Shown piece by piece: positions 38,560 to 52,333 of a stretch of 64,000 nt of DNA. The DNA lies in NCBI RefSeq assembly GCF_003261635.1, contig NZ_QFXK01000029.1, forward strand, positions 124,001-188,000, read 5' to 3'. The stretch comes from Kribbella monticola. Its GTDB lineage: Bacteria > Actinomycetota > Actinomycetes > Propionibacteriales > Kribbellaceae. Below the pieces are notes generated by a model. It had not been told where the DNA came from. It was given only the letters and a program-made list of their open reading frames with translations, and did not search any database. Position numbers and translations under genes: made by a program. Each line of letters begins with the position of its first letter. The first letter of the stretch is position 1.

Positions 38560-38754
38560 GTCACTCTCCGACCGATCCATAGATGAAGTCGGAAAAATAG
38601 TTACACGCCCGGGCTCCGAGCAGAAGAGGTTGCGGCCGGCGATTCGATCCGGTGATGACCCGATGCGGTAGCTGTCTGGCAGGTGAATGGCTGGTCGCCG
38701 GGGCCAGCCAGTACCGTGGGGACCGGATCAACCAGGGACCGAGAGGGCGGGAAA

Positions 38755-39276
38755 GTGCTGCGTACGGCCACCGACGGCGACGTCGACATCATCCGGGTGC
38801 TGCGCAACCAGGAGCCCAACCGCGAGGTCAGCGTCAACGCCCACGAGATCTCGCCCGACGAGCACGCGGCCTGGTGGGCAAAGGCCAGCGTCGACCCGAC
38901 CCGGCGGGTGCTGATCTACGAACGCGACGGGGTCACCGCCGGAGTGGTGAACTTCTTCGACCTGGAACTCGAGACCGAGCCCAGGACCGGCGCCTGGGGC
39001 TTCTTCCTGGACGCCGAGGGCCTGGCCGAGCGCGGCGAGACGCTGCCCGCGTGGATCGAGGTCATGAAGGACGCCACCAACTACGCGTTCGACGAGCTCG
39101 GCCTGGACGAGCTGCACGGTGAGGTGCTCGAGCACAACGCCGTGGTCCGGCAGATGAACCGGCGGTTCCGCTTCGTCGAAGGTGAACCGGAGACCCGGTA
39201 CGCCGACGGCCGCGAGATCACCGTGTTCCCGATCAGCCTGCACAAAGACAACCGGCGGAAGCCGAAGGGAAACTGA
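38755..39276 (+). CDS. GNAT acetyltransferase, PseH-like
   Basis: A 173-residue acetyltransferase resembling PseH, which N-acetylates the 4-amino group of UDP-4-amino-4,6-dideoxy sugars in pseudaminic acid synthesis. The region DGDVDIIRVLRNQEPNREVSVNAHEISPDEHAAWW matches the family N-terminus, and the late motif VLEHNAVVRQMNRRFRFVEG is the usual N-A-xxxx-x-x-y-x-kxGF-like tail. The GTG at 38755 follows GAGAGGGCGGG. It is 5 bp upstream of the nonulosonate synthase, so the two form an operon. The direct substrate is inferred from this pairing. Confidence 0.78.
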   Translation: MLRTATDGDVDIIRVLRNQEPNREVSVNAHEISPDEHAAWWAKASVDPTRRVLIYERDGVTAGVVNFFDLELETEPRTGAWGFFLDAEGLAERGETLPAWIEVMKDATNYAFDELGLDELHGEVLEHNAVVRQMNRRFRFVEGEPETRYADGREITVFPISLHKDNRRKPKGN

Positions 39277-39281
39277 ACCTC

Positions 39282-40340
39282 ATGAGTGCCAGCAAGACCA
39301 TCAACTTCGGCGACGTCCCGGTCGGCCCGGACCACCAGCCGTTCATCATCGCGGAGATGTCCGGCAACCACAACGGCGACCTCGAGCGGGCCAAGGACAT
39401 CGTCCGCGCGATGGGCGAGACCGGTGTCCAGGCGCTGAAGCTGCAGACGTACACCGCCGACACGATCACGCTCGACGTCGACCTGCCGGCGTTCCGGCTG
39501 CCGTCGGAGCACGAGCTGTGGGGCGGCGCCCGGCTGTACGACCTGTACCAGGAGGCGCACACGCCGTGGGAGTGGCACGAGCCGCTGTTCGAGCTGGCCA
39601 ACTCGCTCGGCATGCTGGCGTTCTCGTCGCCGTTCGACCCGACCGCGATCGACTTCCTGGAGAAGCTGAACGTCCCGGCGTACAAGGTCGCCTCCAACGA
39701 GATCGGCGACCTGCCGCTGGTGCGCGGGATGGCCGAGACCGGCAAGCCGATCATCATCTCGACCGGTTCGGCGACGCTGATGGACATCGACGCGGCGGTT
39801 CGCGCGGCCCGGTCCACCGGTAACGAGCAGATCATCGTGCTGTCCTGTACGGCGAGCTACCCGGCGCCGGCCGACCAGTCGAACCTCCGCTCGATCCCGG
39901 TACTGCGGGACGCTCTCGGCGTCCAGATCGGCCTGTCCGACCACACGATGGGGATCGGCGCCTCGATCGCGGCCGTGGCGCTCGGCGCGACGGTGATCGA
40001 GAAGCATGTCACGCTGTCCCGCGCCGACGGCGGCGTCGACTCGGCGTTCTCGCTGGAACCGGCCGAGGTGAAGCTGCTGGTCGAGGGCACCAAGGTCGCC
40101 CAGCAGGCCCTCGGTGAGCCGATCGTCGGCCCGAAGCAGGCCGAGCAGAACGTGCTCCGCTTCCGCCGCTCGCTCTACATCACCCGCGACGTCAAGGCCG
40201 GTGAAAAGGTGGCCGCCGACAACGTCCGCTCCGTCCGCCCCGCCGGCGGCCTCGCCCCCGACGCCTTCACTTCCGTCGAAGGCCGCGAATTCCGCGTCGA
40301 CGCAGTAGCCGGCACCCCCCTCACCTGGGACGTCCTCTGA
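39282..40340 (+). CDS. pseI: Nonulosonic acid synthase (PseI/NeuB family)
   Basis: A 352-residue enzyme that condenses phosphoenolpyruvate with a 6-carbon amino-sugar to give a nine-carbon sialic-type acid. FIIAEMSGNHNGDLERAKDIV, KLQTYTADTITLD, KVASNEIGDLPLV, LSCTASYPAP and GLSDHTMG define the NeuB barrel; a C-terminal SAF (antifreeze-like) domain (about 295-352) closes the active site. Length and HTPWEWHEPLF fit PseI (pseudaminic acid) better than NeuB, but Kdn or legionaminic acid cannot be excluded. The partner enzymes PseB, C, F and G are not in the window. Confidence 0.88.
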   Translation: MSASKTINFGDVPVGPDHQPFIIAEMSGNHNGDLERAKDIVRAMGETGVQALKLQTYTADTITLDVDLPAFRLPSEHELWGGARLYDLYQEAHTPWEWHEPLFELANSLGMLAFSSPFDPTAIDFLEKLNVPAYKVASNEIGDLPLVRGMAETGKPIIISTGSATLMDIDAAVRAARSTGNEQIIVLSCTASYPAPADQSNLRSIPVLRDALGVQIGLSDHTMGIGASIAAVALGATVIEKHVTLSRADGGVDSAFSLEPAEVKLLVEGTKVAQQALGEPIVGPKQAEQNVLRFRRSLYITRDVKAGEKVAADNVRSVRPAGGLAPDAFTSVEGREFRVDAVAGTPLTWDVL

Positions 40341-41206: not shown

Positions 41207-41653
41207 CTAGTTGTGGGATTTGTCGCGGAAGGTCCAGAAGTTGTGGAGGAGGTAGGAGGCGACCGGGACGGCGCCGATGACGAGGGCCTGGGCGAGGAGG
41301 ACCGGGAGGCCGAAGACCTCGATCAGCAGCGGCATGCCGAGCAGGGAGCAGCCGAGGCCGAACAGGTAGACCGTGTAGAACTTGGCGAAACCGCGGATCC
41401 AGCCGGCCGAGGTGGAGCCGAAGACGAAGTCGCGGTACAGCGGGTAGACGATCAGGGCGGTGGTGAAGTTCGCCGCCGCGGTGACCGCGAGGTACGGGAT
41501 CGAGTGCTGGAGGAAGTGCCAGCCGAGCCAGAACAGGCCGAAGTACAAGACATTCGTGCCGACGCCGACGATCAGGTAGCGGACCCGGTGGTCCCCGGCG
41601 ACCTTCGCGAGCTTGCTCGCGGCGGGCTTGGGGCCGAGCTGAGCGACAGAAAT
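41207..41653 (-). CDS. GtrA-family membrane protein, probable ATT start
   Basis: A 148-residue GtrA-like protein with four membrane helices, the family thought to flip polyprenyl-phosphate-linked sugars. The conserved first helix (RYLIVGVGTNVLYFGLFW) lies upstream of the first usual start codon: reading back from the TTG at 41548 there is no ATG, GTG or TTG in frame. An ATT at 41653 has AGAAGAGG 7-8 bases upstream and gives the normal family length. ATT initiation is rare (known for infC), so this is a proposal; a base error is the alternative. It is divergent from a GtrB-like GT2 gene. Confidence 0.78.
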   Translation of the reverse strand: MSVAQLGPKPAASKLAKVAGDHRVRYLIVGVGTNVLYFGLFWLGWHFLQHSIPYLAVTAAANFTTALIVYPLYRDFVFGSTSAGWIRGFAKFYTVYLFGLGCSLLGMPLLIEVFGLPVLLAQALVIGAVPVASYLLHNFWTFRDKSHN

Positions 41654-41773
41654 GGCAGGACCTCTTCTGGTCGGTGGAAGAATAAGGGCAGTTCGAAGAC
41701 GTGGAACAATCGCAGCGGCGGAACCGCCGTGACCGCCTCCCCCGCGCCTGTGTCACCAGCAGAAGGGCCAGCA

Positions 41774-42727
41774 GTGTTCGTCTCCGTCGTCGTGCCATGT
41801 TACCGGTCGGCAGCCACGCTGCCGCGCCTCGTCGAGAATCTGACCCAGGTCTTACCCGACGTGACATCCGGCTACGAGATCATCCTGGTCGTCGACGGCA
41901 GCCCGGACGACACCTGGCAGGTCGCCAGCGAACTGTCGAACAAGTACGCCAAGACCCGGGCCATGCGGCTGGCCCGCAACTACGGCCAGCACAACGCTTT
42001 GATCGCCGGCGTGCGAAACGCGCGGTACGAGGTGGTCATCACGATGGATGACGACCTGCAGCACCCCGCCGACCAGGTCCCGGTCCTGCTCCGGGCCCTC
42101 ACCGACGACGTCGACCTGGTCTACGGCGTACCGGTCGAGGAGGAGCACGGCGTACTGCGCAGCTTCGCCTCCCGGCTGGTCAAGGGGGCGATGTCTGCCA
42201 CGCTGTCGGTGAAGGGCGCCCGGTCCATCAGCGCCTTCCGGGCCTTCCGGACCTTCCTGCGCGACGGTTTCGACGGGCTGGACGGCCCGCACGCGTCGGT
42301 CGACGTGGCGTTGTCGTGGTCGACCACCCGGATCGCGCAGACCACTGTGCGGATGGAGGATCGCGCCGAGGGCAAGTCGAACTACACGACCTGGATGCTG
42401 GTCAAACACGCGCTCACCCTGATCACCGGCTACTCCACCGAGCCGCTGCGGCTGGTCGGCTACCTCGGCTTCATCTGTGCGGTGTTCGGGGTCGGCCTGT
42501 TCGGCCTGATCATCTACAAGTACGTCGCGGGCGCAACGACCGTGGCCGGTTTCACCACGATCGCCTCGATGGTTGCCCTGTTCTCCGGTGCCCAGATGCT
42601 CGCGCTCGGCGTTCTCGGCGAGTACGTCGGACGCCTGCACTCCGGCTCGATGGGCCGCCCGACGTACGTGATCCGCGAGCGCACCGACGTCGACGCGCAC
42701 CCCGACATCACGAGCGAGAGCGACTGA
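41774..42727 (+). CDS. Polyprenyl-phosphate glycosyltransferase, GtrB/DPM1-like
   Basis: A 317-residue GT2 enzyme that transfers a sugar from a nucleotide donor to undecaprenyl or decaprenyl phosphate. SVVVPCYRSAATLPRLVENL, VVDGSPDDTW, NYGQHNALIAGV and ITMDDDLQHP (metal-binding DDD) mark the catalytic domain; two C-terminal membrane helices (about 228-290) anchor it, as in GtrB/ArnC. The GTG at 41774 has AGAAGGG 6 bases upstream; earlier GTGs at 41729 and 41750 are weaker. It is divergent from the GtrA flippase gene and its stop directly abuts the next ATG. Confidence 0.9.
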   Translation: MFVSVVVPCYRSAATLPRLVENLTQVLPDVTSGYEIILVVDGSPDDTWQVASELSNKYAKTRAMRLARNYGQHNALIAGVRNARYEVVITMDDDLQHPADQVPVLLRALTDDVDLVYGVPVEEEHGVLRSFASRLVKGAMSATLSVKGARSISAFRAFRTFLRDGFDGLDGPHASVDVALSWSTTRIAQTTVRMEDRAEGKSNYTTWMLVKHALTLITGYSTEPLRLVGYLGFICAVFGVGLFGLIIYKYVAGATTVAGFTTIASMVALFSGAQMLALGVLGEYVGRLHSGSMGRPTYVIRERTDVDAHPDITSESD

Positions 42728-44209
42728 ATGTACCTGCTTTTTCCTGGCCGGCATCACGTCCTGACCCGGTTTCAGGCCGCCTTCCTCAAAGAACAAGATC
42801 GCACGGTGGTCTGGGCCGTGACGTCGGCGAATCACCACACCACCAAGCGAAATCCCGTTCCGTACCACCGGCGCGAGGCCGCGATCGAACGCTTCAGCCT
42901 CCAGAACGGCCTTCGGTCGCTGGTGATCGGCGTGACCGACACCCCACCGACAGACGACTTCGCCGATGTCACGATCAAGGCGATCGAGGCCGGCACCGAC
43001 GACCAAGTGCAGCTCGACCCGGCCAACACCGTGGTCGCGTGTTCGACGCCCGAGGTCGCCAAGCTCTACGAGCAACTCGGCTACCAGGTGATCGACGTCG
43101 AGCCGCCGGGCGAACCGCGGCCGTGGGACGTCCTGCTCATGATTGCCGAGGGCAACGACGGGTGGCGGGACCTCGCGGACCCAAGCACCGTTGACGTTTT
43201 CGACCGGTACGCGCTCGACGCGCACATCCGGCGCTGCGTCAACGACCCGGTCGTCGGCGACGACGGCGGACTCACCACGACGCGCGACTACAAGACCTAC
43301 GCCGATGCCTTCGAGACCGCGGCCGACCGGAAATGGCTGCAGATCAAGGACTTCGTCCGTCCCGGCCGGATCCTCGACATCGGTTGCGCGACCGGCGCCA
43401 CCCTGCAACTCATCGACGCGGACCCGCGCTTCCACGAGTCCGACCTGATCGGCGTCGAGGTGGCCCGTCACCTGTACGCCGAATGCGTGCACAAGAAGGA
43501 ACAGGGCCTCTTCCACAACCCGAACGTGTACTTCTACCAGCGCAACATGCTCGGCTCGGCCGTCTTCCCACCGAGGTCGATCGACACCACCCTGACGCTG
43601 GCACTGACCCACGAGATCTGGTCGTACGCCGACGGCTCGCGACCCGCGACGGTCCAGCGCTTCGCCGACGCCGTCTACGCACACACGGCTCCCGGTGGCG
43701 TATGGGTCAACTCCGACGTCTGCGGACCGGCCGAGCCCGAGCGCCCCGTAGTACTGGCTCTCGACGACAGCGACGGGGCCAACCCGGACGATGTCACCGA
43801 GTTGGAGGCGCTGCACGATCCGGCCGCGTACGTTGCCGGATTGTCAACCAGGGCACGGTTCTTCCAGTTCGCGCACGACTTCCGGCGGAACGCGAAGGTG
43901 CCGTTCGCGTACGCCGAACGCGCCGGCAAGCTGGTCCTGCGGCTGGCCGACGCGATGGACTTCCTGACCCGCAAGGACTACGTCGACAACTGGCTCAGCG
44001 AAACCCACGAGCAGTTCTGCGGCCTGAACTTCGCCGGCTGGTCCGCGGTCGCCGAGCAGGCCGGTTTCAGCATCGACCCGGCCTCGAAGCCGTGGCGCAA
44101 CGACTGGGTGATCACCCACCGGATCGCGCCGGTCGCCGCGATCACGACCGCCACCGGCGACCCGATCGACTGGCCCGACACCCACCAGCTCCTGATCGCC
44201 CGCCGCTGA
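42728..44209 (+). CDS. Nucleotidyltransferase-like domain fused to SAM methyltransferase
   Basis: A 493-residue apparent fusion. Residues 1-125 resemble archaeal-type NMN adenylyltransferases and related cytidylyltransferases: MYLLFPGRHHVLTRFQ in place of GRFQPFHxGH, then TSANHHTTKRNPVPYHRREAAIERF like the NPF..eR motif, and a late strand-helix pair. Residues about 190-400 are a class I methyltransferase with ILDIGCATGATLQLID (motif I) and IDTTLTLALTHEIWSY. It starts immediately after the GtrB-like stop. A sugar-nucleotide or CDP-linked substrate of the glycan pathway is conceivable. The N-terminal family call is by motif only. Confidence 0.72.
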   Translation: MYLLFPGRHHVLTRFQAAFLKEQDRTVVWAVTSANHHTTKRNPVPYHRREAAIERFSLQNGLRSLVIGVTDTPPTDDFADVTIKAIEAGTDDQVQLDPANTVVACSTPEVAKLYEQLGYQVIDVEPPGEPRPWDVLLMIAEGNDGWRDLADPSTVDVFDRYALDAHIRRCVNDPVVGDDGGLTTTRDYKTYADAFETAADRKWLQIKDFVRPGRILDIGCATGATLQLIDADPRFHESDLIGVEVARHLYAECVHKKEQGLFHNPNVYFYQRNMLGSAVFPPRSIDTTLTLALTHEIWSYADGSRPATVQRFADAVYAHTAPGGVWVNSDVCGPAEPERPVVLALDDSDGANPDDVTELEALHDPAAYVAGLSTRARFFQFAHDFRRNAKVPFAYAERAGKLVLRLADAMDFLTRKDYVDNWLSETHEQFCGLNFAGWSAVAEQAGFSIDPASKPWRNDWVITHRIAPVAAITTATGDPIDWPDTHQLLIARR

Positions 44210-44255: not shown

Positions 44256-46028
44256 TCAGCCGAGTTTGTTGCGGAGTTGGCGGTTCACCTTGCGCTTGAC
44301 CTTGCCGGCGAACTTGCGCGGGTTGCGGATCATCGCGGCCTTGCGGATCAGCTTGACCGCGGTGTACGCCTTGGAGTTGCGCAGCCGGGTGCGCTCCGCG
44401 TTGGCCTTCTGCACCTGCGTGCGCATCTCGCGGATCCGGGTCTCGCGCGTCTTCAGCGCTTTGTCGCGGAAGCCGAGGGTCCGCTCCAGGCCGAAGATCT
44501 GCCCGGCCAGCTCGAACGACTCCTTCTTCGCCCGCTCGGCCTCGGCGAGCGCCGTCTGGACGTCGGGGGTCTGCGAGGCATCCGCCGGAATACCCAGTAC
44601 GCCGGTCAGCGCGGCGGCCAGTTCCTTGCCCCGGGCAACATGGGCGACCGAGGCGGACGGGGTGTCCGCGGCGGTGGCCGGGACCGGCTTCGGTGCCTCG
44701 ATACCGGACATCGCGACCCAGGCCGCGACGAGGTCGTCGCCGACCATCCACGGCGGCCACGGGTGCCGGCGGTGGCCGCTGATCAGCCGGTCGTGGAACC
44801 GCGCCCAGGCCGCTGCCAGCCGATCCTTGTCGCTCTCGTCCGCGACGGTCTGCCAGGGCGAGACGCCGAAGGCGAAGCTGTCACCGTCGACGACCACGTC
44901 GTCCCAGCGCAGCAGCGTCCGCGAACCGGTCTGCGAGCGGGCCCAGTCCCCCAGCCGCGCCGCGAGGTCGCGGAAGGCGGGCACGTCCTCGGCCGCGGCA
45001 AGACGGAACAGCAGGGTCTCGGCAGTGACGCCACCCGGCACCGAAGCAGGAACGGCCGCCGCGTCGAACTGCAGCAACCCTTCTGCCTCAGCCGGAGCAG
45101 CATCCACCGCAACAGCCCAGCCCGCCTCAGCAGCATCCGCAGTCAGTACCGCGGTGTGCCCCGGCGTCTTCGCATAAACGCTGTGGCCGGCAGCGCCACC
45201 GGCAACCGCGATCCAGCCGCTGGGCGTAGCGCCGAGGAGCCCAGCGCGCGCAGCGGACTCCGCACCCTCAGCGATCGGAGCCAGCAGCGGTACTACGGCA
45301 GCCGACGCCTCCAAGGCCTCCACGGCGAGCCGCGCAGGCAACTGCCCCGGACGAGCAGCGGCAGCGACCTCTGCGCTCACCAGCGCGAACGGCGTCTCTT
45401 CGACCGAGAAAGCGGCGTACGACACAGAGGTGCCGAGCCCGACTCGCGACAGCTCAGCGGCAAGCTGGTCGGTGGAGACTGGGCGAGTCGGGTCGTCGTG
45501 CAGCGGGCGCCACTCGTCGTCGCCGTGCCGCTCGTCCGCAGGTCGCCGGTCCAGCAGGTTGGTCAGGGAGAACTCGTTCTCCAGCCCAAGCACGACCACG
45601 GCGCCGGGAGCGGCCACTGCGGCCAGCGCGTCCAGCCGCTGCGTCCAGTTCAGGTCGTCGCTGTCGTACCCCAGGACGCGGTCAAGCCCGTCAGCGGCAA
45701 CCACTACGTCGAAGGGCGCCCGGTCGTCGCCGACAAGCCCATCCAGAGCGCCGGCGATCACCTGCACCTGACCGAACTGCTCAGTGAGCTCAGTGGCGTC
45801 GGAGACCGAGCGGACCAATACAGTCGTCTCGGCCGCCTTGGCGACCACTGCCTCGACCAGATCGGCGGCGTGCGGACCGAGGATCAGCGTGCGTCCCCCG
45901 TCGGGCAGTACGTCGGACAGCAGCGCGCGCAGCACCGGTCCCTGGACGGCCCCCCGCTTGCCGCTGTAGTCGCTCCACGGCTGCATCTCGCCGCGGACCA
46001 CATCGACGGCCAGCTGGTTGTCAGACAC
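44256..46028 (-). CDS. Methyltransferase-like protein with basic coiled-coil tail
   Basis: A 590-residue cytosolic protein. The N-terminal part (about 30-200) has a Rossmann pattern typical of SAM methyltransferases (TLILGPHAADLVEAVVAKA, then FDVVVAADGLDRVLGYD), but motif I is degenerate. The middle is Ala-rich and unassigned. The C-terminus (about 500-590) is a predicted coiled coil (AEAERAKKESFELAGQIFGLERTLGFRDKALKTRETRIREM) ending in a very basic tail, as seen in glycan-synthesis proteins that bind membranes or polyanions. It overlaps the upstream gene by 8 bases, the last of a three-gene leftward operon. Confidence 0.6.
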   Translation of the reverse strand: MSDNQLAVDVVRGEMQPWSDYSGKRGAVQGPVLRALLSDVLPDGGRTLILGPHAADLVEAVVAKAAETTVLVRSVSDATELTEQFGQVQVIAGALDGLVGDDRAPFDVVVAADGLDRVLGYDSDDLNWTQRLDALAAVAAPGAVVVLGLENEFSLTNLLDRRPADERHGDDEWRPLHDDPTRPVSTDQLAAELSRVGLGTSVSYAAFSVEETPFALVSAEVAAAARPGQLPARLAVEALEASAAVVPLLAPIAEGAESAARAGLLGATPSGWIAVAGGAAGHSVYAKTPGHTAVLTADAAEAGWAVAVDAAPAEAEGLLQFDAAAVPASVPGGVTAETLLFRLAAAEDVPAFRDLAARLGDWARSQTGSRTLLRWDDVVVDGDSFAFGVSPWQTVADESDKDRLAAAWARFHDRLISGHRRHPWPPWMVGDDLVAAWVAMSGIEAPKPVPATAADTPSASVAHVARGKELAAALTGVLGIPADASQTPDVQTALAEAERAKKESFELAGQIFGLERTLGFRDKALKTRETRIREMRTQVQKANAERTRLRNSKAYTAVKLIRKAAMIRNPRKFAGKVKRKVNRQLRNKLG

Positions 46029-46851
46029 GCTCTCTCCAATCGAACAACATGCGCAGTTCCTCGGCCGGCATCATCCATGGGACGCCGAGCTCGAGGTCGG
46101 TGGTCGCGCGGGCGGCGGCCAGGTCGATGTCCTTACCGAGCATCTCAGGCCACAGCCTGGCGATCCGGCTCTGCCCGCCGAACAGCGGGTTCTCGCCCTC
46201 CATCTCCATCGGGTCGCCGTACACGGCCGGCTCGCAGCCGGCGGCGATGCCGTAGAAGATCGCGGTGGACAGCCGGTTCGCGGCCACCCGCTTGTGCTTG
46301 CGCAGCTCGGCCAGCTGCTTGTACAGGAAGCGCGGATCCGTGCCCTCGTAGGAGAACCCGCGACGGCCGAACGAGACCACCCGGAAGCCGGCGTCCTCGT
46401 AGGACTTGCGCACCTCGGGCCGGTCGTACTCGGTGTAGTACAGGCTGAACGTGACCGGGCCGGGCTCGGTCTCGCGGATCTCGTCGATCAGGCGCTTGTG
46501 GTCGCCCTGGATCTTGCCGCCCTCCCAGCCGTGGAAGAGGAACCAGAGCGTGCCTTCCCGCTCTTCCTCCGGTACGACGCCGAGGTCGGGCTCCAGCTCC
46601 TGCAGGTACAGGAAGGGGGCGCCGATGCTGTGGTAGTTCCGGCGGCCCAGTGCGTGCCCACGGCGGCGCGGGCCGTCGCTCCAGGTGAACCGCCAGGCGC
46701 CGTCGTAGAACTCGTGCACCGGGTTCCAGCCGTCGGCGATGTTCCAGCCGTGCTGCAGGTAGCCGCGCAGGCGGGGCGGGTACTCGTCGTCCAGACCGGC
46801 GTACCGGGCCAGGATGTGTGCCTGGCCGTAGTAGTGGTTGTGGTGATGCAT
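46021..46851 (-). CDS. Putative GT-B-type glycosyltransferase-like protein
   Basis: A 276-residue soluble protein. LRGYLQHGWN near the N-terminus and the late segment RVAANRLSTAIFYGIAAGCEPAVYGDPM resemble the acceptor-side and donor-binding ends of capsule or teichoic GT-B proteins, in which N/S-rich 'lsta..ya...G.p...yG' contacts the nucleotide. No catalytic motif can be assigned with confidence. The ATG shares a base with the upstream stop (TGATG), so it is coupled to the large GT2 gene; it also overlaps the next gene. A wall-polymer role is inferred from this operon. Confidence 0.55.
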   Translation of the reverse strand: MHHHNHYYGQAHILARYAGLDDEYPPRLRGYLQHGWNIADGWNPVHEFYDGAWRFTWSDGPRRRGHALGRRNYHSIGAPFLYLQELEPDLGVVPEEEREGTLWFLFHGWEGGKIQGDHKRLIDEIRETEPGPVTFSLYYTEYDRPEVRKSYEDAGFRVVSFGRRGFSYEGTDPRFLYKQLAELRKHKRVAANRLSTAIFYGIAAGCEPAVYGDPMEMEGENPLFGGQSRIARLWPEMLGKDIDLAAARATTDLELGVPWMMPAEELRMLFDWRERV

Positions 46852-49178
46852 CAGCGGACCTCGACGTGGAGAGTGCCGGCGTGCGGGCGCAACGCGGCGG
46901 TGTGGCCGTCCTGCTCGAGCTCGATCGGCAACCGGCTGGACAGGAACGGCTCGCACTGGACCGCGTGCGACGAACCGTCGGGCGCGATCGCGAACAGGAT
47001 CCAGTCCGCCAGGCTGGCCAGCGGGTCCGCCGAGCTGACCGTGACCTCGGCCGGGATCAGCTCGGTCAAACCGACCGAGGCGGTCCAGACACCGTCGGCC
47101 ACCGTCCGGCGGCACTCGATGTCCTCGTGCTCGTCGTTGTCGTCCAGGTAGCGCCGCCAGCAGAACGAGTACGCCGCCTCGCCGTCGAGCGCCGCCCCGG
47201 TGATCCGGAGTTCCGGTCCGTTGCTCCCGGCAACCTCTTCGGCCCGGTCGGCGGCCAGCCGGAACGGCGACTCTTGCAGGTTCACGTAACCGCCGGTCGA
47301 GCGGGTCAGCGTCACCAGCCGGCCCTGCTCGGTGTGGCTGGCAGCCCGCTCCGGGGCGGTCCACAGCAGCAGCCGCTCGTCGCCACCGGTGCCGACCAGT
47401 CGGAACGCCCAGGTCGTCCGCTGGGTGAACGGGTCGTCGGGGTTGGTGTCCTCGATGATCGGCCGGATCGGGATCCGGGCGGAGAAGTCGCGGCCGTCGC
47501 CGGACAGTGTGAGCGGCACCGACTGGTCCTGACCGGCCAGCGGCCGGGTGACCTGCAGCTTGGGATCCTTCAGATCGGCCGGGACGCGGCCGTGCAGCAC
47601 CAGGGCGTCGGCGGTCTGCTCCACCGAGGTGAGCCGGCACGGGTCGACCATCCGGCGCAGCACGAACGCGCCGTCCGCACCGGGACCGGGCTGGATCCAG
47701 CTCTTGGCGTCGATCCACGCGCCCGGCGGCCAGCCGGGGCTACCGGGCCGCTGGCCCCGCAGCTTGCCGTGCCGCCGCAACCGCCCGGAGCGCATCCGTA
47801 CGACGAAGTGCGCCGGGGCGGCGGTGTCCTTGAGCCGGGCCAGCAGCGCCTTGTCGAGGCGAACCTCGAACCCGACGAGCGCGGGGTCGCCGTGCGTGTC
47901 GGTCGCGTCGTACCGGCGTACGGCCAGGGGGGTCTCGGCGCCGGCGATGACGAGCGCGATCCGCAGGCTGGAGGACGTCTTGGTCTCCAGGTGCCGGATC
48001 TCGGCGGTGCCCTTCACGGACAGCTCGCTGCCGTGCCAGGCCACCTCGGTCACGCTGGTCGCCAGCGTCAGGTCCTTCATCGGCAGCCGGTAGAGCTCCC
48101 GTGGCACCGAGCTGTTCTGATCGTGGACGCCCGGGTAGTTGTGCTCGAACTGCCAGGAGCGGCGCGGACGCGCGAGCGCCCGGGCACCGCCACGCAGGCC
48201 GCCGTCGTTGCGGAAGTTGGCCAGCCGGCGGAGCAGGTCGACGTCACCGGCGCGCAGCGCCGAGTGCTGCAGGCGGTCGTAGCTGTGCGCCCGCTCGAGC
48301 ACCTTCTCGTCCAGCCGGTCCAGCAGCCGTCGAGCGAGCTTGATCAGGTTCTGCTCTTCTTCGGGCGGTGCGGCGCCGAACGCCATCATCAGCGTGAGCA
48401 TGTCGATCTGGGTGAAGTGCGCGTGCACCCGCGGCCGCACCTCGCCGATCGCGTTCTCGACCAGGTCCATCACCATCTCGGCCGACTTGACCCGGTCCTC
48501 GAGGTTGCCGAACTGGAACTTCTGCTGGGTGATCGACTCGCCGGACTCGCGCTCGCGCCAGTAGTAGACCGGCACCGCCAGCGCGTCCACGGTGACGGCG
48601 TCCAGGTGCGCCTTCAGCGTGACCGGGTAGTCCTCGTAGCGGATCGCGGGGAACTCGTAGCCGTACTCGTCCCAGAAGGACCGCCGGTAGACCTTGTTCC
48701 AGACCATCCGGTCCAGGATCAGGTCCGGGGTCTCGATCACGTGCGTGGCCAGCCGGTCCTTGGCGAACGGCAGCCGGTGGATCCACGACGGCCGGACACC
48801 GGAGGAGTTGTTGAACCGCCGCGCGTTACCGCCGGCGAACGACGAACCGGTCTCGTCCAGGGTCCGGATCAGCTTCTCGAAGCCGTGCCGGGTGACCAGG
48901 TCGTCGCTGTCGACGAAGGTGATGTACTCCCCATCGGCGTGCCGGACCCCGGTGTTGCGGGCCGGGCCGAGGCCCTGGTTCTCCTGCGTCACGATCCGGA
49001 ACCGCGGGTCGCGGTCGCAGAACTCCTTGGCGATCGCGGCGCTGTCGTCCGGGGACCCGTCGTCGACCAGGATCGCCTCGAAGTCGGTCCACGTCTGCCG
49101 GGCGATCGAGTCCAGACACTCCCCGATGTAGTCGCGGACGTTGTAGAAAGGCACAACGACACTCAGCCGCGGCGTCAC
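46851..49178 (-). CDS. GT2 glycosyltransferase with long C-terminal extension
   Basis: A 775-residue protein. Residues 1-230 are a GT-A family 2 domain (LSVVVPFYNVRDYIGECLDSI, LVDDGSPDDS, QENQGLGPARNTG, FVDSDDLV with DxD, and the acceptor-side IRYEDYPV). The remaining 540 residues contain a helical linker and several beta-rich repeats (for example EVRLDKALLARLKDTAAPAHFVVRMRSGR), similar in plan to TarS/TarP-like or SCO-type wall glycosyltransferases whose C-termini mediate oligomerisation. GTG start at 49178. A TAACAT -10-like box near 49310 could drive the three-gene operon independently of the genes further upstream. Confidence 0.82.
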   Translation of the reverse strand: MTPRLSVVVPFYNVRDYIGECLDSIARQTWTDFEAILVDDGSPDDSAAIAKEFCDRDPRFRIVTQENQGLGPARNTGVRHADGEYITFVDSDDLVTRHGFEKLIRTLDETGSSFAGGNARRFNNSSGVRPSWIHRLPFAKDRLATHVIETPDLILDRMVWNKVYRRSFWDEYGYEFPAIRYEDYPVTLKAHLDAVTVDALAVPVYYWRERESGESITQQKFQFGNLEDRVKSAEMVMDLVENAIGEVRPRVHAHFTQIDMLTLMMAFGAAPPEEEQNLIKLARRLLDRLDEKVLERAHSYDRLQHSALRAGDVDLLRRLANFRNDGGLRGGARALARPRRSWQFEHNYPGVHDQNSSVPRELYRLPMKDLTLATSVTEVAWHGSELSVKGTAEIRHLETKTSSSLRIALVIAGAETPLAVRRYDATDTHGDPALVGFEVRLDKALLARLKDTAAPAHFVVRMRSGRLRRHGKLRGQRPGSPGWPPGAWIDAKSWIQPGPGADGAFVLRRMVDPCRLTSVEQTADALVLHGRVPADLKDPKLQVTRPLAGQDQSVPLTLSGDGRDFSARIPIRPIIEDTNPDDPFTQRTTWAFRLVGTGGDERLLLWTAPERAASHTEQGRLVTLTRSTGGYVNLQESPFRLAADRAEEVAGSNGPELRITGAALDGEAAYSFCWRRYLDDNDEHEDIECRRTVADGVWTASVGLTELIPAEVTVSSADPLASLADWILFAIAPDGSSHAVQCEPFLSSRLPIELEQDGHTAALRPHAGTLHVEVR

Positions 49179-49353
49179 AACGGCGTTCTCCTCGGCTCAG
49201 TCGGCAGTTCGGTCAGCATCGACATCCCGGTCGGCATCACGCCGGACCCGATGCTGCTGCGGCTCGCTCGCTCCGGAGCAACCAGAGGCCGGGCGGCGAC
49301 CAAAGATCTCGCGGTCATGTTAGCACCGGGCAGGACCCTCACCGACCTGTGCG

Positions 49354-50145
49354 TCACCCTTCGCGACCGGCCGCTTCCGGTTCACCGGACAGCAATCCCG
49401 GCGTCACGAGATGGACAGTCAACAGGGTGTGCACGGGCTCGAAGCCGTACCTGGCCCACGCCCGTTGCACTCCGGTGTTCTGCCCCTGCGTGGAGATCAC
49501 CAGCCGGCGCGACGTACTCGCGTCCTCTACTGCAGCCAGCAGGTGACCGTAGCGTCCCCGGCCCTGCTCAGCCGGTACTACGCCCGCGAGCTCGATTTCT
49601 GTCCACGACTCCTGTTGGTCGACGGTTGCCAGCCCGAGCACCCGGTGGTCCGGACCACGCAGTACGACCGCACCCTCGTCGGCGATGCTGCGCCGGGCCC
49701 ACTCCTGGTAGCCCGCGAGAGCCAATGCCCTGTCGAACAAGGGGTTCGCGCAGTAGTGATTGCCGTAGTCACCGAAGATGTCGCCGACCAGGTCGTCCAC
49801 CAGGTCGTCGTCGATCGCCCGCTCGAGTCCGGCGTTGAACCCCGCCAGGGGAGCCGGGCGGCGGCCCTTGCCGACCGGGAGCGACCAGTAGACCAGGCTG
49901 TCGGCCAGCAAGGCGGTCCGCGGCCCACTGGCGAGCGCGGCGAACCACTGCACCTCGCGAGCCGGATAACGCAGTACGACGACGTCGGCCGTCGACTTGT
50001 CGACCGCTGTGAGCACCTCGGCCAACTGGCTCCCGGCCGAGGCCGAGACGGTGACCCGGTCGACCGAGACGCCGAACCGCTTCGATTCGTACGCCGAAGG
50101 CGCGGTGATCAGCTCGCCCGCCTCGAGCGCGTCGTACCAGCCCAT
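49354..50145 (-). CDS. GNAT acetyltransferase, WecD/RffC-like
   Basis: A 263-residue two-part GNAT protein, similar in size and layout to dTDP-fucosamine acetyltransferase WecD. The C-terminal GNAT core has TEIELAGVVPAEQGRGRYGHLLAAVEDAS (acetyl-CoA loop QGRGRYG) and TQGQNTGVQRAWARYGFEPV. The N-terminal half includes SLVYWSLPVG and FGDYGNHYCANPLFD, as in WecD. Its ATG shares a base with the WecE-like stop (TGATG), so the aminotransferase product is its likely substrate. The final product would be a 4-acetamido-4,6-dideoxyhexose on dTDP. Confidence 0.82.
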   Translation of the reverse strand: MGWYDALEAGELITAPSAYESKRFGVSVDRVTVSASAGSQLAEVLTAVDKSTADVVVLRYPAREVQWFAALASGPRTALLADSLVYWSLPVGKGRRPAPLAGFNAGLERAIDDDLVDDLVGDIFGDYGNHYCANPLFDRALALAGYQEWARRSIADEGAVVLRGPDHRVLGLATVDQQESWTEIELAGVVPAEQGRGRYGHLLAAVEDASTSRRLVISTQGQNTGVQRAWARYGFEPVHTLLTVHLVTPGLLSGEPEAAGREG

Positions 50146-51290
50146 CAGAGCTGGTACGAGAACAGGCCGTCGAGGACGCGGTCCTGCTCTGTCTCGGTGA
50201 GCTGGCTGAACAACGGGAGCCGCACCAGCCGGCTGCTGAGGTCCTCGGTGACGTCGCAGCCGCCCGGACCGACCCGGCCGTACTTCTTCCCGGCCGGAGC
50301 CGAGTGCAGCGGCACGTAGTGGAACGCCGCGGTGATGTTGCGCTCGCGCAGGTGCGCGATCAGCCCGAGCTGGTGCTCATGGGAGGGCATCAGCACGTAG
50401 TACATGTGCGCGGGGTGCACACAGTCGGCAGGGACCGTCGGCAGGCCGACGCCGTTCGCCTCGGCCCAGTCGGGGAGCTTGTCGTGGTAACGCTGCCACA
50501 TAGCCAGCCGCGGTGCCTGGATCTCCTCGAACAGTTCCAGCTGGGCGGTCAGGAACGCAGCGAGTGGGTCGGCCAGCAGGTAACTGGAGCCGATGTCGAT
50601 CCAGCGGTACTTGTCGACCTGGCCGCGGAAGAACTGGCTGCGGTTCGTGCCCTTCTCCCGGATCACCTCCGCGCGGTGGAGCAGGTCGGCGTCGTTCAGC
50701 ACCAGCGCGCCGCCCTCACCGCAGTGCACGTTCTTGGTGCCGTGGAACGACTGCGTCGCCATCTGCCCGAGCGAACCGAGCGGACGGCCCTTGTACGAAC
50801 CGCCGAGGCCGTGCGCGTTGTCCTCGATCACCGTCAGCCCGTGCTTCTCGGCGATCGCCAGCACGGTGTCCATCTCGACCGCGACGCCGGCGTAGTGGAC
50901 CACGACGATCGCCTTGGTCCGGTCGGTGATCGCAGCCTCGACCTGGGTCTCGTCGAGGTTCAGCGTGTCCGGCCGGATGTCGACGAACACCGGTACGGCG
51001 CCGCGCAGCGCGTATGCGTTGGCCGTCGAGACGAAGGTGAACGACGGCATGATCACCTCGTCGCCGGGCTCCAGGTCGAGCAGCAGCGCGGTCATCTCCA
51101 GCGCATGCGTGCAGGAGGGCGTCAGCAGTGCCCCGACGCCACCGGCCAGCTTCGTGAGCAGCTCGGAGGCGCGGGCGGTGAACGGGCCGTCCCCGACCAC
51201 CGCGGCCGAGGCGAAGGACTGGTTGACGTAGGCGAGTTCGTCGCCCGCCACAAAGGCCTTGACGAAGGGGATCGGAGACAGGTCGGGCAT
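50145..51290 (-). CDS. wecE: dTDP-4-amino-4,6-dideoxyhexose transaminase (WecE/RffA)
   Basis: A 381-residue PLP enzyme of the DegT/DnrJ/EryC1 family that converts dTDP-4-keto-6-deoxyglucose to dTDP-4-amino-4,6-dideoxy-galactose using glutamate. Near-complete WecE signatures are seen: FVSTANAYALRGAVPVFVDI, VHYAGVAVEMD, VIEDNAHGLGGSYKGRPLG and SFHGTKNVHCGEGGAL, with Lys186 as the PLP lysine. FHYVPLHSAPAGKKYGR is typical of WecE. It is coupled to the WecD-like gene. RmlA and RmlB, which supply the substrate, are not in the window. Confidence 0.93.
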   Translation of the reverse strand: MPDLSPIPFVKAFVAGDELAYVNQSFASAAVVGDGPFTARASELLTKLAGGVGALLTPSCTHALEMTALLLDLEPGDEVIMPSFTFVSTANAYALRGAVPVFVDIRPDTLNLDETQVEAAITDRTKAIVVVHYAGVAVEMDTVLAIAEKHGLTVIEDNAHGLGGSYKGRPLGSLGQMATQSFHGTKNVHCGEGGALVLNDADLLHRAEVIREKGTNRSQFFRGQVDKYRWIDIGSSYLLADPLAAFLTAQLELFEEIQAPRLAMWQRYHDKLPDWAEANGVGLPTVPADCVHPAHMYYVLMPSHEHQLGLIAHLRERNITAAFHYVPLHSAPAGKKYGRVGPGGCDVTEDLSSRLVRLPLFSQLTETEQDRVLDGLFSYQL

Positions 51291-51301
51291 GGTGGAGGAG
51301 C

Positions 51302-52333
51302 CTACCCGTGGTCGGTAGCGCGGTCCGAAACAGCTTGAGCGGCAGCGTCGGCAGTGGCTTCGTCAAGGGCTTCGGCGTACGAATGATGACCGGGGTCCTC
51401 GAGGCTGTCGTAGCCGATCATGAACTGCGGCCGCCGCTGGCTGGCCTGGAACAAGCGGGCCACGTACTCCCCCAGCAACCCGAGGCAGAGCAACTGGAGC
51501 GCACCGATCGTCCCGACGGCGAGCACCGTAGAGGTCCAGCCGGGAATGCTCCGGCCGGTCAGCTTGATCGCCAACGCAGCAACCACGACCCCCACCGACA
51601 GCAACCCGCCGAGCAGCCCGAGCCACGTCGCGAGCCGCAGTGGCGCCGCCGAGAAGGCAGTCAGGCTGTCGAAGGCCAGCCGGAACATCTTGGACAGCGT
51701 GTACTTCGTACTTCCGGCGGCCCGCTCTGCGCGGACGTACTTCACCTCCGCGCTCGGGAAGCCCAGCCACGGGATCACCAGCCGGAAGACCCGGCCGTCC
51801 TCGGGTAGCTGGTTCACTGCGTCCACCACGCGCCGGGAGACGAGCCGGAAGTCACCCGCGTCGAACGGCAGATCGCGGCCGACCAAGCGGCACATGAGCC
51901 GGTAGTAGAGGCGCGCGGTCGTCCGCTTCGCCCAGCTGTCGCTGGAGCGATCGGAACGTACGCCGTACACGACGTCGACGTCGTCCTCGCGCGCTGTGGC
52001 GAGCAGCTCGGCGATGACCTCGGGTGGATCCTGCAGGTCGGCGTCGATGGTGACCAGGTATTCACCGCGAGCCAGCTGGAATCCGGCCGACAGGGCCGCC
52101 TGGTGGCCGCTGTTGCGCAGCAACCGGACCAACCGGAGCTCTGGCCAGTCCGCGCTCGCCCTGGTGAGTAATGCGGCGGTCCGGTCGCGGCTTCCGTCGT
52201 CGACCACCACCAGCTCGTAGCTGAGCCCCAGGCCGTCCAGCAGTGGGTGCATCCGGTCGAGGAAGATCGGCAGCACGTCCTCCTCGTCGTACATTGGTAC
52301 GACGACGGACAGTACGGGCCGAGTGGTTTGCAT
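51302..52333 (-). CDS. Polyprenyl-phosphate glycosyltransferase, ArnC/DPM1-like
   Basis: A 343-residue GT2 enzyme with VLSVVVPMYDEEDVLPIFLDRM, VVDDGSRDRT, RNSGHQAALSAGF and TIDADLQDPPEV (DxD), a specificity segment FDAGDFRLVSRRVVDAVNQLPEDGRVFR, and two C-terminal membrane helices (about 228-300) as in ArnC and GtrB. It would load a sugar on polyprenyl phosphate for use by GT-C enzymes. GGAGGAGGG lies 8 bases before the ATG. It is 11 bp upstream of wecE and divergent from paralogue B of the large membrane family, a pairing that suggests donor and user. Confidence 0.9.
   Translation of the reverse strand: MQTTRPVLSVVVPMYDEEDVLPIFLDRMHPLLDGLGLSYELVVVDDGSRDRTAALLTRASADWPELRLVRLLRNSGHQAALSAGFQLARGEYLVTIDADLQDPPEVIAELLATAREDDVDVVYGVRSDRSSDSWAKRTTARLYYRLMCRLVGRDLPFDAGDFRLVSRRVVDAVNQLPEDGRVFRLVIPWLGFPSAEVKYVRAERAAGSTKYTLSKMFRLAFDSLTAFSAAPLRLATWLGLLGGLLSVGVVVAALAIKLTGRSIPGWTSTVLAVGTIGALQLLCLGLLGEYVARLFQASQRRPQFMIGYDSLEDPGHHSYAEALDEATADAAAQAVSDRATDHG

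Follow-up and report, generated by a model that had tools for sequence, protein, structure and literature searches.

A gene joining a predicted NadM-type NMN adenylyltransferase fold to a class I SAM methyltransferase in Actinobacteria and Bacteroidota

The catalytic signatures of NMN adenylyltransferases (NMNATs) are the HxGH motif and the S/T-xx-R region (SGTxxR or ISSTxxR), which is ATP-binding. The closest described systems to the gene analysed here are the archaeal NadM enzymes, such as MJ0541 and the Methanothermobacter NMNAT, and the NadM-Nudix NMNAT/ADP-ribose pyrophosphatases, in which an NMNAT is likewise combined with a second catalytic domain. NrtR was reportedly the subject of a study by Rodionov in 2008, and NAD pathways are said to have been treated by de Souza and Aravind in 2012. 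The gene is located at 42728..44209 (+) in the window, a 64,000-nucleotide stretch of Kribbella monticola DNA, and encodes a 493-amino acid protein (ATG start) consisting of a predicted NMNAT-fold domain and a class I SAM methyltransferase. It is the sole copy in the host genome of 8.0 Mb, where the next match has an E-value of 0.8.

The N-terminal domain, residues 1-172 (42728..43243, +), is predicted to adopt the NadM-type NMN adenylyltransferase fold, that is, the fold of a HIGH-superfamily NMNAT. In the predicted structures (38 relatives; L064-L066 were not included), the blocks covering residues 1-170 mostly have pLDDT values of 83-95, with two blocks dipping to 66-69, and the methyltransferase part is less certain than this domain. 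The best 13 matches in a Foldseek search of the domain against the PDB are all archaeal NMNATs (E-values from 1.0e-9 to 3.4e-8), and the VIA comparison with the Methanothermobacter NMNAT yielded a Z-score of 19.7 over 159 aligned residues (rmsd 1.9, 20% identity). Independently of the structure match, a 15-sequence profile recovered the MJ0541 NMNAT with an E-value of 3.3e-5. No Pfam family matched the N-terminal part alone, and weak CTP_transf_like matches were obtained for 5 of 15 relatives (best E-value 0.04). A preliminary description of this DNA had proposed a nucleotidyltransferase-like N-terminus, to be checked by structure prediction; that prediction was run and a HIGH-type fold was found, in agreement with the proposal.

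The motif register used here is that of the MJ0541 alignment together with the structural start, where model residue 1 coincides with residue 4 of the VIA chain. In this register, GRFQPFHKGH of MJ0541 aligns with GRHHVLTRFQ (residues 7-16; 42746..42775, +). This segment had previously been called NadM-like, which holds for the conserved G and R, but the motif is not intact, as both HxGH histidines are replaced. The profile-profile comparison with the Bacteroidota NadM pairs TRFQ with ARFQ, placing the motif several residues away from its position in the MJ0541 alignment, and the HMM alignment underlying the MJ0541 profile match is likewise shifted. Conservation was assessed in alignment A1, which contains the window protein and 37 of the 48 relative loci (38 members); 10 loci were left out as near duplicates (L012, L013, L016, L017, L036, L038, L041, L044, L045 and L046), as was L021, whose reading frame is broken. 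Alignments A2, A3 and A5 contain 15, 16 and 33 sequences, respectively. T-x-[FY]-Q occupies the HxGH site in 38/38 members, with T13 and Q16 fixed; G7, R8 and H9 are also present in all of them and H10 in 37. Within TTKRNPVPYHRREAAIERF (residues 38-56 of the 493-amino acid protein), the segment TTKRNPVPYHRR (residues 38-49; 42839..42874, +) is the counterpart of T..NPF...ER of NadM and is retained as T.RNP.....R, with T39, R41, N42, P43 and R49 invariant. The invariant CSTP (residues 105-108; 43040..43051, +) corresponds to the SGNP loop of NadM. At the site of SGTxxR (SGTEIR in MJ0541), the family has PWDxx, in which the Thr and Arg are gone: PWD occupies residues 132-134 (43121..43129, +), P132 and D134 are found in 38/38 members and W133 in 37, position 136 is L or V and position 137 is L or E.

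Because both signatures have been rewritten, the N-terminal domain, as judged from these alignments, is probably a nucleotide-binding module and not a working adenylyltransferase. Amino acid sequence identities between the actinobacterial and Bacteroidota proteins are similar for the N-terminal (35.7-41.3%) and C-terminal (38.7-42.2%) domains, indicating that the N-terminal domain is not decaying. This, together with the fixation of the replaced positions, points to constraint on a changed site.

Residues ~188-493 (residues 188-493 correspond to 43289..44206, +) make up a class I SAM methyltransferase domain that contains an insert and has an intact SAM-site motif. Motif I, DIGCATG (43376..43396, +), conforms to D-x-G-x-x-x-G, and D217, I218, G219, C220 and G223 are present in 38/38 members; the acidic residue after strand 2 is also present (position 244 is E in 31 members and D in 7). 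The Rossmann-type methyltransferase fold was detected by VIA with Z-scores of up to 14.5 (187 residues, rmsd 3.8). The window protein falls below the cut-off of every curated methyltransferase model, including Pfam Methyltransf_12 (E-value 8.9e-5; 23.6 bits against a cut-off of 30), and the NCBIfam model PRK06922 matches 35 of the 38 members at E-values of ≤0.01. The VIA matches of this domain, with Z-scores of ~13-14.5, are spread over many unrelated enzymes, and the model singles out no substrate. Nicotinamide N-methyltransferase chains make up much of the Foldseek list at ~10% identity, this enzyme having very many PDB deposits, and the enzyme is not among the 50 matches listed by VIA. Two further segments are invariant in the family, namely LTHE (residues 293-296; 43604..43615, +), a candidate active-site segment, and the family signature RKDYVDNW (residues 415-422; 43970..43993, +), a candidate substrate-binding segment.

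The two-domain gene is kept across Actinobacteria and Bacteroidota at 36-87% identity, a conservation far beyond chance. The nearest relatives are Kribbella proteins (82-87% identical), and both domains co-occur in the true relatives found, which belong to Kribbella, the Actinoplanes group, Cellulosimicrobium and Bacteroidota. The two domains share one reading frame in all true relatives read except L021, where the frame breaks, and the fusion to a class I methyltransferase that had been proposed from the window was confirmed. In a tree of 19 members, the Bacteroidota proteins are separated from those of Actinobacteria with full support. The gene is rare, being present in 2 of 396 sampled actinobacterial genomes and 3 of 345 sampled Bacteroidota genomes; a third actinobacterial match (G167, L067) was discarded as a false positive because it matched none of the A1, A2 and A3 profiles. 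No match to the gene was found in 50,697 phage or 72,556 plasmid records. The viral_contigs set contained a single weak match (L055), confined to the methyltransferase core (residues 203-258), and no match to the Bacteroidota NadM. PHROGs gave a weak tRNA-methyltransferase match and nothing else, and the matches in a viral structure library were all weak, most of them covering a single domain. Contigs labelled Streptomyces sp. SID13031 (L036) and Sphaerisporangium cinnabarinum (L052) carry Kribbella- and Cellulosimicrobium-type loci, respectively, and are probably misnamed or mixed assemblies.

In Bacteroidota, the gene is an accessory of NAD-salvage operons of the NrtR-NadM-NadV-Prs type. The gene order in L053 is NrtR, NadM-Nudix, NadV/NAMPT, PRPP synthetase, a 139-amino acid protein, ADP-ribosylglycohydrolase, the fusion gene and NADAR, and the Nudix protein of this locus carries a NadM-type N-terminus. 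NrtR, NadM-Nudix, NadV, Prs and the 139-amino acid gene are located upstream of the fusion gene in six of the seven Bacteroidota loci (L049, L050, L051, L053, L054 and L064), and L065, the remaining locus, has a divergent nrtR adjoining the gene, with NadM and NadV on another contig. As these genomes are related, the seven loci do not represent seven independent events. The three Bacteroidota genomes with the gene all fall among the nine (of 345) with an operon NadM, a coincidence with a hypergeometric probability of 1.2e-5 when relatedness is ignored and with a NadM profile that was built from such operons and favours near relatives. The gene is missing from the other six of these nine genomes, two of which (L080 and L081) were read directly, and its accessory status follows from this absence. 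Standard NadM proteins with an intact ARFQ..LHEGH-type motif are encoded in the same operons. The conserved operon (L053:2492-10146) has variable extras, namely ADP-ribosylglycohydrolase (also present in L049), NADAR, and, in L054, a NAD-kinase-2-like gene (E-value 8e-8) and a Band_7 protein. No match to the L053 NAD-operon proteins was found within ~8 kb of any actinobacterial copy at an E-value of 1e-5.

The Kribbella copy lies in what seems to be a pseudaminic-acid locus equipped with a nucleotide activator of its own. Upstream of the gene, the window encodes a PseH-like acetyltransferase (38683..39276, +; TIGR03585, 64.5 bits, below the cut-off of 93.1), the pseudaminic acid synthase PseI (39282..40340, +; TIGR03586, 447.6 bits, above the cut-off of 340.25), a GtrA-like membrane protein (41207..41548, -; PF04138, E-value 9.3e-14) and, directly adjacent, a GtrB-like glycosyltransferase (41750..42727, +; PF00535, E-value 6.4e-27) whose start codon is not settled. 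The TGA of the last gene abuts the ATG of the fusion gene with zero gap. This flush arrangement, pointed out in the preliminary description, is correct for the window, but a GtrB-like gene lies between PseI and the fusion gene in only 5 of the 17 other Kribbella-type loci and is found near none of the non-Kribbella copies. PseH-like and PseI genes are located upstream in all 17, and in 5 of them PseI ends ≤8 bases from the gene. The contig continues with genes for PseB (over its cut-off) and a PseG-like protein (below its cut-off) and a CTP_transf_3 gene (over its cut-off), all of which lie 8-14 kb past the window. PseF (TIGR03584) had no match in the genome at E-values of ≤0.001, which prompted us to consider the fusion protein as a replacement CMP-Pse synthetase; this was ruled out by the CTP_transf_3 gene, which, standing with PseB and the PseG-like gene, gives the locus an activator of its own, so that the fusion protein is not needed as the only one. 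Downstream, window positions 46851-52333 encode a TarS-linker glycosyltransferase, a GNAT protein and a WecE-type aminotransferase (TIGR02379, over cut-off), which suggests that a branch for a 4-amino-4,6-dideoxysugar adjoins the pseudaminic-acid genes. A gene on the opposite strand (44256-46028), found near the fusion gene in Kribbella loci, encodes a 590-amino acid protein with no Pfam match over cut-off.

Outside Kribbella, no homologues of the PseH, PseI and GtrB proteins of the window locus were found within ~8 kb of the Actinoplanes-group, Cellulosimicrobium and Bacteroidota copies, ruling out an obligate partnership there. In the Actinoplanes group (15 loci; L022-L035 and L048), no neighbour is common to at least three loci, and blastn detected flanking DNA (>200 bp) shared by three locus pairs only. 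With so few shared neighbours or flanks, no partner can be named, and the data suggest that the gene is mobile or often relocated in this group. In 10 of the 11 Cellulosimicrobium-type loci, the fusion gene is followed by a 198-amino acid gene with a C-terminal HTH-like match (L041:9696-10292), after which L041 carries a gene with a mycothiol-S-transferase domain.

Our preferred reading, to which we give about an even chance, is that the gene encodes a NAD-linked SAM methyltransferase whose pseudo-NMNAT domain binds a pyridine nucleotide or an ADP-ribose compound. It draws on the fold, which indicates that a nucleotide is recognized, on the lost motifs, which speak against adenylyl transfer, and on the Bacteroidota operons, which suggest a connection with NAD; against it stand the actinobacterial copies, for which no NAD-operon neighbours were found within ~8 kb, and the placement of the Kribbella copy in a sugar locus. 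According to this reading, the N-terminal domain descends from a NadM-type NMN adenylyltransferase, as the predicted fold and the sequence profile indicate, and has lost both adenylyl-transfer signatures, with other pocket positions fixed in the alignment. It would most likely bind its ligand without adenylylating it, and either hand the ligand to the methyltransferase or switch the latter on or off accordingly. The methyltransferase would probably methylate a small compound arising in the NAD cycle, for example nicotinamide, NMN or a derivative of ADP-ribose. In Actinobacteria the gene lies in unrelated settings, including the pseudaminic-acid locus of Kribbella. A more specific version, in which the protein is an undescribed NAD enzyme whose pseudo-NMNAT domain takes up NMN, NAD or a compound of the ADP-ribose type, passes it to the methyltransferase and yields a methylated pyridine-nucleotide product, is put forward tentatively and is rather doubtful; such a product could serve as a signal, as a shielded form of NAD or as a waste exit.

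Three other explanations were weighed against this NAD-linked reading. The preliminary description envisaged an enzyme that activates a sugar or polyol nucleotide and methylates a wall precursor. The activating part finds no support, given the replacement of both catalytic motifs and the CTP_transf_3 activator on the contig, and the wall part, which draws on the Kribbella context, is not supported in view of the Bacteroidota copies in NAD operons. A narrower form, in which a nucleotide-linked sugar such as CMP-pseudaminic acid is recognized and its sugar methylated for a teichulosonic-type wall polymer, agrees with the constant company of PseH and PseI, with the pseudaminic-acid genes beyond the window and with the teichuronic or teichulosonic acid recorded for Kribbella walls in PMC6113628. 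As no such neighbours were found within ~8 kb of the copies from the other groups, we regard this wall or glycan role in Kribbella as unlikely. The N-terminal domain might instead sense NAD or ADP-ribose status for a methyltransferase acting on protein or RNA, possibly as part of a conflict with phages. NADAR and ADP-ribosylglycohydrolase, the neighbours in L053, are described as members of ADP-ribose processing networks in the available part of PMC9503650, which mentions neither 'methylase' nor 'methyltransferase'; weak TrmB-type matches in 33 of the 38 members and the variable placement in Actinoplanes-group genomes would also suit such a role. These TrmB-type matches are confined to the SAM-binding core, no RNA-binding add-on domain was seen and the phage and plasmid records contained no match, making a macromolecular substrate improbable. 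The last explanation, whose mechanism is that of the preliminary description, takes T-x-[FY]-Q and the paired His9/His10 as a new catalytic site of a bifunctional enzyme, by which a phosphorylated substrate would be both activated and methylated. The substituted positions are indeed fixed rather than drifting, but with both NMNAT signatures gone and a standard NadM encoded in the same Bacteroidota operons, we consider such an enzyme very improbable.

If the NAD link proves true, bacteria would have a SAM-dependent methylation step coupled to NAD recycling that present maps of the pathway do not show, and two central cofactors would be linked on the base of a dead NMNAT domain. The fold result by itself describes a domain fusion that is conserved in two phyla and not recognized as a fusion by the curated models searched, and annotation pipelines would label the protein merely as a methyltransferase. 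No curated family among those searched covers the two domains together, and no description of the fusion was found in the open-licence literature searched; the protein is a new architecture composed of two known kinds of domain. Compared with class I SAM methyltransferases (Methyltransf_12/25 and PRK06922), with which it has the DIGCxxG motif and the Rossmann core in common, the window protein adds a conserved insert and the RKDYVDNW signature. The NadM-Nudix proteins (2qjo, 2qjt and 2r5w; Z-scores of 14.4-15.3) resemble it in carrying a second catalytic domain, but in the window protein a SAM methyltransferase takes the place of the Nudix domain and the NMNAT motifs are lost. With archaeal NadM, the window protein shares the predicted fold over residues 1-172 at 18-21% identity, the GR start, the N-P-x-x-x-x-x-R segment and a C-terminal W..L....VDV segment; it differs in the conversion of HxGH to T-x-[FY]-Q and of SGTxxR to PWDxx, and in the methyltransferase that is fused to it.
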